Source of the DNA: a virus
DNA: 55,230 nucleotides
Virus record (IMG/VR): IMGVR_UViG_3300042397_000935
Span: 1 to 55,230 of that record
Strand: one strand, 5' to 3'
The notes under the pieces were generated by a model. The model saw only the letters and a program-made list of their open reading frames with translations, had not been told where the DNA came from and made no database searches. A program made the translations under genes and the position numbers. Below, piece after piece: positions 3,056 through 44,922 of the stretch (position 1 is its first letter; each line of letters begins with the position of its first letter).

Positions 3056-4296
3056 AAACTATTTTAATTGCAATTCCTACTGCTCGATACATTGAGGCTG
3101 ACACATTCAAATCGATCTATGACTTGGAAGTGCCTACAGGATACACGGTTACATATCAACACTTCTACGGTTACCGCGTCGACCAGGTCCGCAATCTAAT
3201 TGCAGACTGGGTTGTTCGTGGATTCGACTATCTGTTTTCTGTGGATCATGACATTACATTTCCACCAGATACACTAAAGAAACTTCTTGCTCACGATAAA
3301 GATCTGGTTTCTGGTGTGTATCGCCAGAGACTTGAACCGCAGATGCTTGAGATCTATGAGCCGTTTGGTACACGTATGTCAACCGAAGATCTCTATGCAA
3401 AGAACTGGAAGCTGATTGGTATCGGTGGCTGTGGCTTCGGCTGTGTACTTGTCAAGAAAGAAGTATTAGCAAGTGTAGGTTATCCACAGTTCGAATATCA
3501 TCCTGCATTAGATCATAACAATACGATCAGCGAAGATACCGATTTTTGTAAGAAGGCAATAAACAAAGGATTCAAACTATGGTGCGATCCATCAATACGT
3601 TGTGGCCATATTGGTTCTACAACAATGCATGTTCAATTGCCAGAAGTCAATCCTATAGAGGCAAGACTTCGAGAGTTATCACTGAGAGATGATCAGCCAA
3701 AAGACCACGTAGAGTATCTAAACAACATGGGTATCAAACCCAAGGTTATTTACGATATTGGTGCATGTGTTATGCATTGGACAAAAGAAGCCAAGAAAGT
3801 CTGGCCAGAAGCTAAGATTGTTATGTTCGATGCAATGAATCATGCAGAGTTCCTCTATAAGGAATCTGGTCTTGACTATTATTGCGACGGTCCAGTCGGT
3901 GACTTTACTCGATGGGTAAAGTACTACGAAAATCCAATGGATCCAGCTGGCAACTCAGTCTTCAAGGAAGATACACCTTACTTCACAGAAGAACATGCGG
4001 TCGACAAGAAGATGAGGTCGCTCGATGATATTGCATCTGAAAAGGGGTGGGAAAAGCCTGACCTTGTCAAGATCGATGCGCAAGGTGCAGAGTTGTTGAT
4101 TCTAGTTGGGGCAGAGAAAACTCTGTCAGAATGTCAAGACATTATTATTGAAATGCAACACCAAGAATATAATCTTGGCGCACCACAAAAAGATGATGTA
4201 ACGCAGTATCTGAATGAGATGGGGTTTGAATTGGTTGACCAGATTCACATTGGTAATGTGGATGGTGACTATCACTTTAGACGTCGGAAGGTTTAG
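3052..4296 (+). CDS. Glycosyltransferase-FkbM methyltransferase fusion
   Basis: 414 residues. The N-terminal 200 residues form a GT-A-like domain (IAIPTARYIEADTF, DYLFSVDHDITFPPDTL with a DHD metal motif, SGVYRQR). From about residue 225 the protein is an FkbM-type SAM-dependent methyltransferase: VIYDIGACVMHW is SAM motif I, FDAMNHAEF the acidic post-motif, and LVKIDAQGAELLIL is the diagnostic FkbM sequence. Translationally coupled to the upstream glycosyltransferase by ATGA. The pair probably builds and O-methylates a short glycan. The 3' end overlaps the convergent gene at 4277 by 20 nt. Confidence 0.85.
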   Translation: MKTILIAIPTARYIEADTFKSIYDLEVPTGYTVTYQHFYGYRVDQVRNLIADWVVRGFDYLFSVDHDITFPPDTLKKLLAHDKDLVSGVYRQRLEPQMLEIYEPFGTRMSTEDLYAKNWKLIGIGGCGFGCVLVKKEVLASVGYPQFEYHPALDHNNTISEDTDFCKKAINKGFKLWCDPSIRCGHIGSTTMHVQLPEVNPIEARLRELSLRDDQPKDHVEYLNNMGIKPKVIYDIGACVMHWTKEAKKVWPEAKIVMFDAMNHAEFLYKESGLDYYCDGPVGDFTRWVKYYENPMDPAGNSVFKEDTPYFTEEHAVDKKMRSLDDIASEKGWEKPDLVKIDAQGAELLILVGAEKTLSECQDIIIEMQHQEYNLGAPQKDDVTQYLNEMGFELVDQIHIGNVDGDYHFRRRKV

Positions 4297-4471
4297 TCTT
4301 TTTCTTTAACTTCTCGAGTTCGAGAAGAACTTGTTGATGCTCGTTTTGAAGGATGGCGTGACTCTTTTCGAGTAGCGCCATCCTTGTTTCATGTAGAACG
4401 TTCTTACTAACAGCATCGTGTAGATTCGTTGTCAGGCGATTGATATATTCATTAACAAATTCAGCTTCCAT
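4277..4471 (-). CDS. Small coiled-coil protein downstream of a fibre gene
   Basis: 64 residues from ATG 4471; an in-frame TTG at 4495 is possible but lies inside the upstream gene. The C-terminal half (ALLEKSHAILQNEHQQVLLE and on) is a charged heptad-like helix ending KLKKKTKPSDV. It follows the fibre gene after 4 nt. Not recognised; it could be a fibre chaperone or trimerisation helper. Its size and position recall the 69-residue protein at 10673. Confidence 0.65.
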   Translation of the reverse strand: MEAEFVNEYINRLTTNLHDAVSKNVLHETRMALLEKSHAILQNEHQQVLLELEKLKKKTKPSDV

Positions 4472-4475
4472 AATA

Positions 4476-5894
4476 TTAGAACGTGCCTCCGTCAAGTGTG
4501 CCGTAAACTACAGTAGAACCGTTTGATTGTAGAACATAGCCATCGGTTCCGAGAGAAAGATTGGTGAATCCGTTGGTAGAGTTGCCTACGATGATTCCAC
4601 CGCTTGAAAGTGATGACCACTTATATGTGTTTGCTGCAACCGAAACAGCAATCTCACTGTTTGCAGTGATGTTCAGAACGCTATTATTCGAAACAAGTGC
4701 GCCTGAGTTTAGGTATGCCTCAAGAACGGCTGTACCATAACCAACAGCAGCCGTATTGACAGTAGTTGTTGGTTCGACTTCTACACCAGTAAAGAGTTTG
4801 TAGATGCCGTCTGATGCGTCACGAACGAGACCCGTGTAACGTGTACCACCATTTGTGAACATACCATAGAAACCAACGTCAACGGTATCTGCTCCGTTGC
4901 CATTAGCAACCTTAATCAGCGGATCTTCAATGGTTAGGTTAGTTGTATCAATAGTTGTCAGTGTACCAGAAACTGTTAGGTTACCAGAAAGAATAAGATC
5001 TGAAATCGACAGCGCATTATTAACATGAATACCAGACGTATTAACAGTTAGCGTAGAACCAGTTATTACACCAACTGCATCTGAAGCAACATTAATACCA
5101 TTAGCAGCACCAATGTTTAACGTTAAATCGCCAGTTGTACCGCCACCAGTAAGACCATCACCAGCAACAACCGATGTAATATCGGCTAGTGTATTTGCCC
5201 AGTATACTGATGTTCCATTTGAGTGAAGTACTTGACCTGCAGCACCAATACCGCCATTTGCAGAAAGTGCTATACCACCCGCAAGTGTTACTTGGCTTGC
5301 ATTCGCAATGAACGATGAACCAACAGAAAGAGTAGCAGCATTTACGGTACTTGTTGCAAAAACGTTTGCGGTTGTTAGTAATGAACCGTTAAGAGTTGAG
5401 TATACTGATGGTGTACCAATTTGAAGATCAAGTGCATTGATTTTGTCACCAACACCAAGACCGCCAGTGATAACTACGGCACCTGTAGAAGTATTTGCAC
5501 TTCCAGTAATATTCGAAAACGTTATAGTATTCGAGAAAGTATATTGTGCCGAAGTATTAATCGACACCGCGCCTTGTTCAAGCCAGTAAGTATTGCCACC
5601 GGCGTCAACCGATAGAAGATACCCAGCACCAGGTGTTGATGTGCCGTTTGCAGTAATAGAGCGAGCTGTAAGGTTCGCTGTCTTAACAGTATCAATAAAC
5701 CCAGTGCCGTTGGCAACAAGAGCTTGATTGGCGGTCAGGACACCAGGATTAAATTTGCCTGCAATTGTAATCGAAGCACCGTTAGAACCGATGAATAGAT
5801 GATCACCATTTGCAGTAAAAGCCAGTTCACCATTAGCTAATGACGGAGGAGTGGCCGTAGTTAAAGATCTTTTGATCTGAATTAGGTTAGCCAT
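4476..5894 (-). CDS. Tail fibre-like structural protein
   Basis: 472 residues from ATG 5894 with a GAGGAAC ribosome site. The start MANLIQIKRSLTTATPPSLA followed by NGELAFTANGDHLFIGSNG is a common phage fibre N-terminus. The rest is Asn/Thr/Ser/Ala-rich beta-repeat text (VSGTLTTIDTTNLTIEDPLI, GGGTTGDLTLNIG) and it ends LDGGTF. The same six residues end the next upstream protein (5913-6173). Likely part of a fibre or baseplate appendage; no enzyme domain seen. Confidence 0.75.
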   Translation of the reverse strand: MANLIQIKRSLTTATPPSLANGELAFTANGDHLFIGSNGASITIAGKFNPGVLTANQALVANGTGFIDTVKTANLTARSITANGTSTPGAGYLLSVDAGGNTYWLEQGAVSINTSAQYTFSNTITFSNITGSANTSTGAVVITGGLGVGDKINALDLQIGTPSVYSTLNGSLLTTANVFATSTVNAATLSVGSSFIANASQVTLAGGIALSANGGIGAAGQVLHSNGTSVYWANTLADITSVVAGDGLTGGGTTGDLTLNIGAANGINVASDAVGVITGSTLTVNTSGIHVNNALSISDLILSGNLTVSGTLTTIDTTNLTIEDPLIKVANGNGADTVDVGFYGMFTNGGTRYTGLVRDASDGIYKLFTGVEVEPTTTVNTAAVGYGTAVLEAYLNSGALVSNNSVLNITANSEIAVSVAANTYKWSSLSSGGIIVGNSTNGFTNLSLGTDGYVLQSNGSTVVYGTLDGGTF

Positions 5895-12985: not shown

Positions 12986-12993
12986 TATTTATA
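12986..12993 (-). promoter_or_regulatory. T4-type late promoter
   Basis: Exact TATAAATA on the minus strand in the 39-nt gap before the 693-residue structural gene. Expected transcription start about 12980, leaving a short leader with a ribosome site. Confidence 0.75.
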
Positions 12994-41806: not shown

Positions 41807-42376
41807 TTATGTAAATTTATCTTTCAGGATCTTCCTGCACTTGAACATATCATAGTGGAAGAACGGCTTGTACTTCATGCACTTCTTATATATCGTAGGC
41901 CAAAGAACAGTATCATCAATCTTCTTGTTCCAATGATTAAAGAAACCGAGCAGATCATTGAGTATTATTATTGACTCGATACTTATCTCTCGTCTTAGAT
42001 ATTGTTTAAGAAGATAAGGATGTTGTCCATTATTTACTATAACATTATCATCGAATTTTGTACATAGTTTATTTAAGTCTTGCTCAAAAATATATGACAA
42101 GGATTGCTGGCGCTTTAACCAGTTACCGTAGACCTTTTCTGAGTCATCATTGAATAGATCACCGACCCACTTAAGATCACCGTCAACAAAGTTAGCCACC
42201 AGATACTGTAAAGGATCTTTATGTTTGGATAACTTATAGTACTGGTATTTGTCCTTGCGTGTCTCAAACGAATGTTGAGATGCGCTGACCTTGCCGTTGT
42301 ACTTGATATAATCGTATGATGTGGTAAAGTGACTCTTGACGGCAAGGAAAGTTTTATAGCTTTCAAAAGGCGTCAT
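41807..42376 (-). CDS. gp59: Helicase loader gp59
   Basis: 189 residues from ATG 42376, which overlaps the gp33 stop by ATGA. Matches T4 gp59 along its length: SYDYIKYNGKVSASQHSFET, RKDKYQYYKLSKHKD, NFVDGDLKWVGDL. Gp59 loads the gp41 helicase on gp32-coated forks. Position between gp33 and gp32 is the T4 order. Confidence 0.88.
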   Translation of the reverse strand: MTPFESYKTFLAVKSHFTTSYDYIKYNGKVSASQHSFETRKDKYQYYKLSKHKDPLQYLVANFVDGDLKWVGDLFNDDSEKVYGNWLKRQQSLSYIFEQDLNKLCTKFDDNVIVNNGQHPYLLKQYLRREISIESIIILNDLLGFFNHWNKKIDDTVLWPTIYKKCMKYKPFFHYDMFKCRKILKDKFT

Positions 42377-42618
42377 ATTGGCAAACATGCCCGCTTAGGA
42401 AGGAAGTTAAGTCCCTCACATTCAGATTGAAGCTTCGACTTGATCCGTATGTTATTACGTATAATCATAGCCGCTGCTTCAATCTCAACGTTGTTCGTCT
42501 CACAATAATGGACGACGGCATCTAAATAATCTATATTTCCTCTAGTAACAAGAGATTCAATGTCCTTAATAAACTTCTCAGTTGTCAAGGCTTTCTCAAA
42601 GATAACGTCGTCCACCAT
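42373..42618 (-). CDS. gp33: Late transcription coactivator gp33
   Basis: 81 residues, as in cyanophage gp33. NIDYLDAVVHYCETNNVEIE and KLQSECEGLNFLPK match the family. Gp33 bridges RNA polymerase and the sliding clamp at TATAAATA promoters, which fits the late promoters found in this window. Start ATG 42618 with an AGAGGATG ribosome site that contains the stop of the endolysin gene. Confidence 0.85.
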   Translation of the reverse strand: MVDDVIFEKALTTEKFIKDIESLVTRGNIDYLDAVVHYCETNNVEIEAAAMIIRNNIRIKSKLQSECEGLNFLPKRACLPI

Positions 42619-42621
42619 AAT

Positions 42622-43200
42622 TCATCCTCTATAAAAAATATGTGCACCGATCTTGGTGGTGCGATCAAATACTCTACCCCATGAAGGGCTTACGTAATCT
42701 GCGTGGTAGAATTTTGCGCCCTTGGTAACATCGCCATAGTTACCCAGATATACGTGTTCAGCGATTTCTTTGGCTTTTCGATATGCGCCTGCATCAGCTA
42801 TTCGCTTTCCTCCCTCACACTTCCATGAAAATTGGCATACGCGCGCAGTTCTCTGATTGATAACTCCACATGGTGTGCTAGGGAATCTTTTATCTTTCGC
42901 ACGGTTCAATACTACATTGTTAACCGCAATCCTACCTTTGTAGGGTTCATGACCTGCTTCGAAATATGTATTCTCGGCCATGCATTGTATTTGTTTTTTG
43001 TCGTATTGGCTCAGGTAAACTGGCTTCTTAACAACTACTTCTTTTTCGATTACTTTAGTTACTGGGACCTTTACAATCTTGACTTCTGGTTCTTTCGTTG
43101 GCATTGCAACTGCTGCACCTGCAGCAAGCATTAATCCAAGACAGAATCCTTCAGCCCAGCGAAGGTACGGGAAATCTTTTCTGTTTTCGAAAAGTTTCAT
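42622..43200 (-). CDS. SleB-type cell wall hydrolase, membrane-anchored endolysin
   Basis: 192 residues. Residues 15-33 (WAEGFCLGLMLAAGAAVAM) form an N-terminal membrane anchor or signal-arrest segment. A coiled linker follows (PVTKVIEKEVVVKKP), then the Hydrolase_2/SleB domain: CMAENTYFEAGHEPYKGRIA with the catalytic-type Glu 76, and FSWKCEGG. Such enzymes cleave peptidoglycan at lysis, and an anchored form can reach the wall without a holin. Preceded by a long structured leader and a late promoter. Confidence 0.85.
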   Translation of the reverse strand: MKLFENRKDFPYLRWAEGFCLGLMLAAGAAVAMPTKEPEVKIVKVPVTKVIEKEVVVKKPVYLSQYDKKQIQCMAENTYFEAGHEPYKGRIAVNNVVLNRAKDKRFPSTPCGVINQRTARVCQFSWKCEGGKRIADAGAYRKAKEIAEHVYLGNYGDVTKGAKFYHADYVSPSWGRVFDRTTKIGAHIFYRG

Positions 43201-43440
43201 GTCTATCCTCTTAGTCTCAATGACTTTGGCAAACAGAGACTACTGTGCAGGCATCTCAGCCATATAGTTTTCTGTCGCTATAAGAAGATAACAAAGGTAT
43301 CTTCCATCCATTTCCCTCTTACTGGAAATGCAAAATCATTAGTGTTTTCGTCGGTGGCATCCGAACAATGCCGCTTTCTAGCCATCTAAGACTTGAAGTT
43401 TTTGTAAGAGTCAATGGAGGATTTCAACCTCCTTGGTAAC
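43201..43440 (-). promoter_or_regulatory. Structured 5' leader of the endolysin gene
   Basis: 240 nt with no convincing gene. Five perfect hairpins lie in a row: 43416-43432 (GGAGG/CCTCC), 43356-43372 (GGCAT/ATGCC), 43309-43330 (CATTTCC/GGAAATG), 43285-43303 (AAGATA/TATCTT) and 43212-43242 (TAGTCTC/GAGACTA). The last is directly upstream of the AGAGGAT ribosome site. This may time or restrain endolysin translation, or be a separate small RNA. Confidence 0.45.
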
Positions 43441-43444
43441 CTAT

Positions 43445-43452
43445 TATTTATA
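43445..43452 (-). promoter_or_regulatory. T4-type late promoter for the endolysin unit
   Basis: Minus strand TATAAATA, expected start about 43439, directly before the hairpin leader. It lies near the 3' boundary of the tmRNA coding piece. Confidence 0.65.
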
Positions 43453-43541
43453 ACACCTTGCCAATCAACCCGTAGCATCTATGGTGCAACTGGTAGCAAA
43501 GTGGCCCGTTCTGTTCCAAGGTGGAGCCATACCCGTGTAGA

Positions 43542-43586
43542 TCATGCCGCTAGGCGGATATCTGCAAAGCTATCGTTATCGTTAGC
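43542..43586 (-). other. tmRNA tag reading frame ANDNDSFADIRLAA-stop
   Basis: Resume codon GCT at 43586-43584, then 13 further codons and TGA at 43544-43542. The encoded tag begins ANDN, as in alphaproteobacterial tags, and ends LAA, the classical protease degron. Confidence 0.9.
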
Positions 43587-43671
43587 ATTTATGTTTAATG
43601 GCACTTTGCCAGGCAATCAGTCTCGAACCGCCCTATTACACGAAAATCGAATTCCAAGGTCACCCCCATCA

Positions 43672-43743
43672 TCTACCAAGCAAACGCGCTCTTGCAACGT
43701 TCAGGGTAGAAGCCTAACCGCATCCCAATGAATGCTTGGTAGA
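43672..43743 (-). repeat. Inverted repeat closing the tmRNA spacer
   Basis: TCTACCAAGC right after the CCA pairs perfectly over 10 bp with GCTTGGTAGA (43672-43681) four nt before the coding piece. It would stack on the acceptor stem and present both processing sites. Confidence 0.85.
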
Positions 43744-43814
43744 TGGTGGAGGTGCGGGGAGTCGAACCCCGGTCTTTCCGCCTTTATTGTTGATTGTCAA
43801 CAACTGATATACTA

Positions 43815-43844
43815 TATATACAATGTTTTTCTTTAATTGTACAC
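43815..43844 (-). promoter_or_regulatory. Promoter of the tmRNA, GTGTACA-N17-TATATA
   Basis: -35-like GTGTACA at 43844-43838 and TATATA at 43820-43815 on the minus strand. It begins a few nt after the preceding stop (43847) and fires into the tmRNA, so the RNA is transcribed on its own. Confidence 0.75.
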
Positions 43845-43846
43845 AA

Positions 43847-44155
43847 CTATTTTACTTTAATTAGCCATTTAGCCCGGTCTACGATCCATTGATCGTGGGG
43901 AAGGTGCATACCTGTAGACCCATCCCATTCTGCAAAGACCTCGTCATAGAATCCTATGACCTTCTCTTGTTTCTGTAGCTCTACAAGCTCGTCAGCCCAC
44001 TGTTGCCATTTGCCATCACTCACAACACTCTCGTCCATACTATAGTAAAGATAAGAATGAACTAACATCTGATGCCGTCTCTGGCGGATCTTCTCTACCA
44101 AAGACGGCACATAGATGGTACTATCATCAAAGAAAGATTCTAGTGATGCAGACAT
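43847..44155 (-). CDS. Small phage protein resembling the LigA Ia domain
   Basis: 102 residues from ATG 44155 (TAATG overlap with the nuclease gene). RRHQMLVHSYLYYSMDESVV then SDGKWQQWADELVELQK recalls the N-terminal Ia helices of NAD-dependent DNA ligase (H.Y.YY....VSD..Y..L..EL..L), which bind NAD. The rest (AEWDGSTGMHLPHDQWIVDR) is shared by a widespread phage family of unknown role. No ligase catalytic domain is present. I infer a possible NAD or nucleotide-binding role only weakly. Confidence 0.65.
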   Translation of the reverse strand: MSASLESFFDDSTIYVPSLVEKIRQRRHQMLVHSYLYYSMDESVVSDGKWQQWADELVELQKQEKVIGFYDEVFAEWDGSTGMHLPHDQWIVDRAKWLIKVK

Positions 44156-44589
44156 TAGCACCAAGACTGTTTAGCATCGCCGTAGTATGCACGAGCAAAG
44201 CCGTTCTTGATTAGCAGTTCACGAAGGCTCATGCCATCAAAAAGAATATCTCCAAGAACACGGCCACCAAACTTGTCCCAATCATACAGAACAACCTGAT
44301 GTTTCTTCGTACCAGCAATCAAATCTTTTACAAAGACAGAAGCTTGTTCGCCTCGAGCTTTTTCACTTGCGCACTTAGCACGGAAGCTCTTTTCAGGCGT
44401 ATCGACACCAAAGATTCTAACACCGAGTTCAGGCTTTAGAGGAGCTGGCAGATATGGAGCAGTGATTATGATTGTATCACCATCAACTGCACGTACAATG
44501 GTTGTATCATACGTAACACCTACAGGTGTCTTTTGTGCGATTGCAGGAGTGGATAGCGCCAAGAGCGCTAGAGCAATAAACTTCTTCAT
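44155..44589 (-). CDS. Secreted thermonuclease-like nuclease (SNase fold)
   Basis: 144 residues with an N-terminal signal peptide (MKKFIALALLALSTPAIAQ). The catalytic set of staphylococcal nuclease is kept: VDGDTI (Asp 36/38), VRIFGVDTPE (Arg 58, Asp 63, Glu 66) and KFGGRVLG (Arg 110). It would degrade DNA or RNA in the periplasm or outside. The gene follows the signal-peptide protein at 44599 after 9 nt with its own AAGGAAA ribosome site. A role in removing incoming DNA or scavenging host DNA is inference. Confidence 0.85.
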   Translation of the reverse strand: MKKFIALALLALSTPAIAQKTPVGVTYDTTIVRAVDGDTIIITAPYLPAPLKPELGVRIFGVDTPEKSFRAKCASEKARGEQASVFVKDLIAGTKKHQVVLYDWDKFGGRVLGDILFDGMSLRELLIKNGFARAYYGDAKQSWC

Positions 44590-44598
44590 GTATTTTCC

Positions 44599-44922
44599 TT
44601 AGTTACAACGGGTTTCCCAATAAACGTAGCGTTCGCCTCGACGCCATTCAGTAATCTGTTCGCGAACACAATAACGCTTATCATATCTATACTCGGGTGG
44701 ATAGTAGCGATTGTCATCCTCAGGTTCTTGTTCACGATTTTTTGAACTAAGAACCCCGACTACGACACCGCCGATGATAGCACCACAAAGCCATCCACAA
44801 CCACCTCTGTGTTCTTTGCGCTCTCGCCACTCTTTGCGTTCATGGCGATCACGGTCACGTGCAAGAGATGGTGTAGAGATTAACATACTACCAATAATTA
44901 AAGATGCAAGAAACTTCTTCAT
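44599..44922 (-). CDS. Secreted glycine-zipper protein
   Basis: 107 residues. Signal peptide MKKFLASLIIGSMLISTPSLA, similar in its first residues to the nuclease downstream. A basic stretch (RDRHERKEWRERKEH) precedes a Gly-zipper membrane segment (GCGWLCGAIIGGVVVGVLSS). The C-terminus has charged text and Cys residues (RYCVREQITEWRRGERYVYW). It resembles outer-membrane glycine-zipper proteins. Possible role: envelope change or superinfection exclusion with the nuclease; not shown. Confidence 0.7.
   Translation of the reverse strand: MKKFLASLIIGSMLISTPSLARDRDRHERKEWRERKEHRGGCGWLCGAIIGGVVVGVLSSKNREQEPEDDNRYYPPEYRYDKRYCVREQITEWRRGERYVYWETRCN

Follow-up and report, generated by a model that had tools for sequence, protein, structure and literature searches.

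We identified a circularly permuted (two-piece) tmRNA gene in a T4-like virus of bacteria, in which the segment lying between the two RNA pieces is exchanged between phages like a cassette and, in some relatives, carries an HNH gene of a homing endonuclease family. The gene lies at positions 43460-43807 on the minus strand of the window, i.e., the whole 55,230-nt stretch of IMG/VR record IMGVR_UViG_3300042397_000935 that was analyzed. Two-piece tmRNAs are already known from other phages. What is new here is the behavior of the intervening sequence (IVS), which is 76 nt long in the window. Relatives are referred to below by contig or record labels beginning with L. The features of the locus, all on the minus strand, are as follows.

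43813-43843 (-), promoter-like sequence: -35-like TGTACA (43843-43838), 17 nt, then TATATATA (43820-43813); promoter activity is inferred
43744-43805 (-), amino-acid acceptor piece: T-arm (43771-43755), acceptor 3' strand CACCUCC (43754-43748) and encoded ACCA (43747-43744); its exact mature 5' end was not determined
43668-43743 (-), IVS, 76 nt, an exchangeable cassette expected to be removed on processing
43733-43743 (-), 5' arm of the IVS helix, UCUACCAAGCA, continuous with the acceptor stem
43672-43682 (-), 3' arm of the IVS helix, UGCUUGGUAGA
43668-43671 (-), UGAU, which pairs with ACCA and leaves the conserved C74.A(-2) mismatch
43500-43667 (-), coding piece: acceptor 5' strand GGGGGUG (43667-43661), D-loop-like part, tag frame and downstream pseudoknot region; the 3' end is approximate (43451 according to ARAGORN)
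43542-43586 (-), tag frame GCU..UGA, peptide ANDNDSFADIRLAA
43445-43452 (-), TATAAATA, T4-type late-promoter box between the tmRNA and endolysin genes
42622-43200 (-), endolysin (cell wall hydrolase), the next gene downstream (PF07486, E 3.5e-24; phrog_938)
42373-42618 (-), gp33-like late-transcription coactivator (phrog_254, E 7.4e-16)
41807-42388 (-), helicase loader gp59, used as anchor gene for the conserved locus (phrog_269, E 1.5e-53)

The sequence-only reading had proposed a phage-encoded permuted tmRNA at this place, and this observation was confirmed. The order T-arm, acceptor 3' strand, encoded CCA and then GGGGGTGACCTTGG is present in the sequence. Absence of a match to the permuted tmRNA models had been specified in advance as a result that would count against the gene; instead, Rfam RF04321 (tmRNA_permuted) matched 43805-43542 (-) over the full model with 89.6 bits (gathering score 47, E 5.8e-16), and RF01849 (alpha_tmRNA) matched 43847-43500 (-) with 56.2 bits (cut-off 50). 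ARAGORN independently predicted a permuted gene at complement 43451-43839 with the tag ANDNDSFADIRLAA followed by a stop; this tag is conserved in many relatives. The acceptor stem CACCUCC/GGGGGUG contains 7 pairs, including G3-U70 (43665 with 43750), the pair of alanine identity, and in 52 distinct viral genes all 7 acceptor pairs form and the G-U is invariant. Outside the tRNA-like domain, the alpha_tmRNA model fits poorly, with several model pairs unformed; together with a minimum free energy z-score of -2.95 over 340 nt, this leaves it undecided whether the alphaproteobacterial P2 helix and pseudoknots are present. The interpretation given in the earlier reading was only partly supported: an alphaproteobacterial-type permuted tmRNA with an alanine identity pair and an intact tag is supported, whereas a takeover of ribosome rescue by the phage is inference. 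No SmpB gene was found in the window or in 20 related records, so host SmpB would be needed. That reading also presented the class as unusual for phages, although it is already published, and did not notice the IVS, the most unusual part of the gene.

Its claim that the gene has its own promoter was also only partly supported. A TATAAATA box was found at a fixed distance, 75-80 nt before CCA, in 28 of 50 distinct viral genes (chance expectation about 0.008 per 65-nt stretch), several of which have TTGACA 17 nt upstream. The box matches both a sigma-70 -10 element and the T4 late box and is thus compatible with early use, late use or both; the report on phage Melnitz (PMC9004378) argued for early. 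The window itself has the weaker TGTACA-17 nt-TATATATA (43843-43813), which was not listed by a consensus scan. The box downstream of the tmRNA at 43445-43452 is an exact match, but 6 of 100 shuffles had as many boxes over the whole window, so position rather than number is the argument. Further late-type TATAAATA boxes were found at 12986 (-), 33426 (-) / 33430 (+) and 41775 (-).

The neighboring genes are of T4 type and include gp32, helicase loader gp59, late-transcription coactivator gp33, endolysin, PhoH, and baseplate and tail genes. The order PhoH, nuclease, tmRNA, gp33, gp59 and gp32 is shared with Methylophilales phage Melnitz (MZ577096). Among gp59 relatives in IMG/VR with at least 2.5 kb upstream or an ARAGORN hit, 48 have an ARAGORN tmRNA, all on the same strand at a median of 1089 nt before gp59, and nine of the remaining 12 have one by Rfam. 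Thus, the gene is present at this locus in all 57 testable close relatives (gp59 at least 64% identical). The three without it (L078, L079 and L081) are the most distant (gp59 49% identical) and have a tRNA about 1 kb upstream of gp59, near the place of the tmRNA in closer relatives. Just upstream of the tmRNA, the window (43847-44164, -) encodes a 105-residue protein that is only the N-terminal NAD-binding domain of a DNA ligase (PF22745); most relatives with the tmRNA lack it. A cyanophage assignment was rejected because no psbA/psbD-type photosystem reaction-centre gene was found in 21 records and the tag and model are alphaproteobacterial; the host was not assigned. On a tree of tmRNA cores, most phage genes, including that of the window, grouped apart from 50 chromosomal alphaproteobacterial genes, although deep support was weak and the root was a midpoint. 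One bacterial genome (Microvirga, the genome of L259) contained two permuted tmRNAs (C61:234826-235038 and C27:16817-17103), the second of which has a long IVS and the tag ANDNVDMGAVRLAA; its relatives group with phage genes on the tree, suggesting that it may be phage-derived.

Two-piece phage tmRNAs have been published. The Melnitz paper counted 53 in a phage database, 50 of them aquatic, and proposed roles in ribosome maintenance or protein recycling (PMC9004378), and the 2025 tmRNA database paper lists 79 phage sequences (PMC11915505). The Melnitz gene is likewise an alpha-type permuted tmRNA of a T4-like phage, at the same locus upstream of gp33 and gp59 and with the same IVS helix. However, it is followed directly by a glutamine riboswitch, which was not detected in window positions 42500-44700 at E <= 10, and its IVS is 142 nt long (about 6076-6217 of L316) and holds a long open frame; we found no mention of IVS exchange or of an endonuclease in that paper. 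We also detected permuted tmRNA genes matching RF04321 that are not annotated in two isolate records: Caulobacter phage phiCbK (JX163858, L315, complement 625-1064) and Ruegeria phage RpAliso (OR257569, L313, 2864-3207).

The IVS extends the acceptor stem into a 22-bp helix with one conserved mismatch. In 52 distinct viral genes the stem continues through ACCA:UGAU, with a C-A apposition at C74.A(-2) in 45 of 52, into 11 further pairs, of which 10.1 are paired on average compared to 6.5 when partners are shuffled. A formal count on 38 sequences showed 96.5% of cells paired, 163 double-sided compensatory changes against 46.5 +/- 5.4 in shuffled controls, and a covariation score of 0.572 against 0.161 shuffled and at most 0.11 when slid. 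RF04321 and RF01849 share the gene order, acceptor domain, CCA and tag position but treat the IVS as an unpaired loop. The idea that the long helix is phage-only was rejected, since chromosomal alphaproteobacterial genes have hairpins of the same kind, only shorter (median 38 nt against 82 nt in viruses); the helix is probably ancestral and the length phage-like. The isolates phiCbK and Melnitz show the helix, whereas RpAliso does not clearly do so. As only open-access papers were searched, an earlier description of this helix, or of endonucleases in permuted IVSs, is not excluded. The 2025 database paper mentions a tRNA and a repetitive element in permuted IVSs, and homing genes only for group I introns.

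The IVS behaves as an exchangeable cassette. Among 72 distinct viral genes there are 45 IVS clusters. At core identity of at least 0.96 (259 pairs), the median IVS identity is 0.55, while shuffled IVSs have a median of 0.50 and a 95% point of 0.60. Conversely, one 122-nt IVS occurs with five different tags, and genes with the window's tag carry 14 IVS clusters in 27 sequences. For example, the window's IVS is 97% identical (74/76) to that of L333 (the same contig as L023), although the two tmRNAs are only about 70% alike (acceptor region 67/96, coding region 149/224), and a pattern scan found this cassette only there. In L336 and L010, 121/122 IVS positions are identical compared to 61/95 and 125/248 in the acceptor and coding regions. 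The identity stops at or within the acceptor stem and its first neighbors on both sides. In contrast, L333 and L024 are 99.9% identical over 4.7 kb (1694/1696 positions upstream and 2996/3000 downstream), yet have unrelated IVSs of 76 and 88 nt. The two cassettes that were scanned for occur only inside tmRNA genes, not as free elements elsewhere. Chromosomal genes vary as well, but the few pairs at core identity of 0.95 or more (27 pairs) keep a median IVS identity of 0.81. One further contig, L134 (about complement 3600-4700), has a complete tmRNA, an open frame of about 430 nt and a second, truncated coding piece with the same tag, which looks like insertion or recombination at the tmRNA gene.

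In 11 relative contigs (8 distinct proteins) the IVS holds a complete or nearly complete HNH endonuclease gene. Four of these, at the same locus, have IVSs of 471-505 nt (L014, L015, L021 and L039), and searches with that protein brought L374-L376 (IVS 514 nt), L377 and L378, and L443 and L444; the L378 contig starts inside the endonuclease gene. The protein matches, with its N-terminal HNH domain, the phrog_655 phage homing endonucleases (E 1.7e-11) and, in PDB, the endonuclease part of an HNH-bearing group II maturase (E 7e-4). However, Pfam HNH scored 19.4, just below its cut-off of 21.4, and a fold search with a predicted model (pLDDT 70) gave no match at E <= 0.001, only weak HNH hits. 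The subfamily shares a C-terminal part, and every full-length close relative examined lies in a tmRNA IVS, whereas more distant HNH relatives sit elsewhere, one beside a group I intron (L400). Most of these IVSs have a TATAAATA box and a GGAG-type ribosome site before the gene. The helix is intact in all six IVSs drawn out, and the acceptor stem, IVS helix and tag are intact around the gene in L014, L021, L039 and L374. In L014, L015, L021 and L374 the acceptor stem reads GGUCC/GGGCC in place of CCUCC/GGGGG in the window, still with G-U, which would fit a changed target site; however, L039 keeps CACCUCC/GGGGGUG, so self-protection by a changed stem is not general. LAGLIDADG homing endonuclease genes also occur in tmRNA group I introns (PMC11915505), likewise inside a tmRNA gene and in a segment removed from the RNA. 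Those introns are self-splicing and lie in the T-loop region, while here the segment is the IVS of a permuted gene, Rfam finds no group I intron in it and the endonuclease is HNH. The window's own 76-nt IVS has no endonuclease gene, no similarity to the long IVSs and no detectable remnant of one, and no remnants were found in other short IVSs.

The interpretation that we consider somewhat more likely than not is a working phage ssrA gene of the alphaproteobacterial permuted type whose IVS is an intron-like, selectively cheap insertion niche. In this view, one transcript is made in the order acceptor piece, IVS and coding piece; host tRNA-processing enzymes (RNase P at G1 of the coding piece and a 3' endonuclease or exonuclease at CCA) remove the IVS; and the two pieces pair, are charged with alanine and work with host SmpB. 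The RNA would add an LAA-ending tag to proteins on stalled ribosomes, probably keeping ribosomes usable while mRNAs are being broken during infection. The only strong constraint seen on the IVS is the 11-bp helix that continues the acceptor stem, and the loop is free. We propose that double-strand breaks made by HNH endonucleases near the acceptor-stem/IVS border, repaired from a co-infecting phage, drive the exchange of whole cassettes, helix included, and that the window's IVS is an endonuclease-free cassette spread by this route between diverged tmRNA genes. The analysis itself demonstrates what the gene is, that the helix covaries, that cassettes are exchanged and that HNH genes lie inside IVSs, whereas RNA processing, charging, tagging, DNA cleavage and homing are inferences; there are no expression, processing, charging or SmpB-dependent tagging data, and for cutting of and copying into alleles without the element the evidence is only indirect, namely cassette exchange between genes. 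The tmRNA identity is near certain and cassette exchange is strongly supported, while homing by a tmRNA-specific HNH subfamily as the driver is about as likely as not.

The main alternative, possible but less favored, is that the IVS of an ordinary phage-borne permuted tmRNA is an unconstrained spacer exchanged by general T4-type recombination through the conserved tRNA-like flanks, with HNH genes as occasional passengers that play no part. IVS loops are not more structured than shuffled sequence (mean z -0.43, 4 of 38 below -2), T4-like genomes are mosaic and flanks outside the gene also vary, chromosomal alphaproteobacterial genes at core identity of 0.90-0.95 have a median IVS identity of only 0.53, and exchange of endonuclease-free cassettes could be ordinary phage recombination. 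However, the exchange borders have only about 5 to 11 nt of perfect flanking identity between diverged cores, which is short for ordinary homologous recombination, almost nothing but the IVS differs between L333 and L024 over 4.7 kb, and the closest full-length HNH relatives all lie in tmRNA IVSs.

The other explanations are very unlikely. The IVS might be a functional small RNA released on processing and under diversifying selection (for example, a decoy or antisense RNA), given that whole cassettes are kept at 97-100% identity across diverged tmRNAs and that some IVSs hold open frames (complete small ones in L173, hydrophobic and of 38 residues, and L192, of 50 residues, besides that of Melnitz). 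However, a structured small RNA is not supported by the fold z-scores of the loops, and the 45 IVS clusters in 72 genes and the restriction of the two scanned cassettes to tmRNA genes also argue against this reading. ARAGORN found no tRNA in the IVSs of 45 cluster representatives, despite T-arm-like motifs in L096 and L099. A degenerate or captured host ssrA without function would fit the lack of SmpB and the modest alpha_tmRNA score, but not the intact tag, the invariant G3-U70, the compensated acceptor stem, the positionally fixed promoter box and the presence in 57 of 57 close relatives. Finally, although nearly all sequences are metagenome contigs and tmRNA cores are repeated between strains, assembly chimeras are argued against by shared border blocks of at most about 11 nt between diverged cores (shorter than usual assembly words), recurrence of the same core-IVS combinations in independent samples (for example, L334 and L337), helix arms that change together and stay paired, and the same helix in the isolates phiCbK and Melnitz.

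We found no experimental test of a permuted phage tmRNA in the open-access literature, but the conserved locus, intact identity elements and near-universal retention argue for a real role during infection, and the unannotated copy in phiCbK makes it testable in a standard laboratory system. If the homing reading is right, the IVS of permuted phage tmRNA genes is a previously undescribed niche for mobile homing elements that needs no ribozyme or self-splicing: any hairpin-bounded insert between CCA and G1 is removed by enzymes that every cell has. This would add to the known homing niches (introns, inteins and intergenic sites) and explain why the IVS turns over while the rest of the gene does not.
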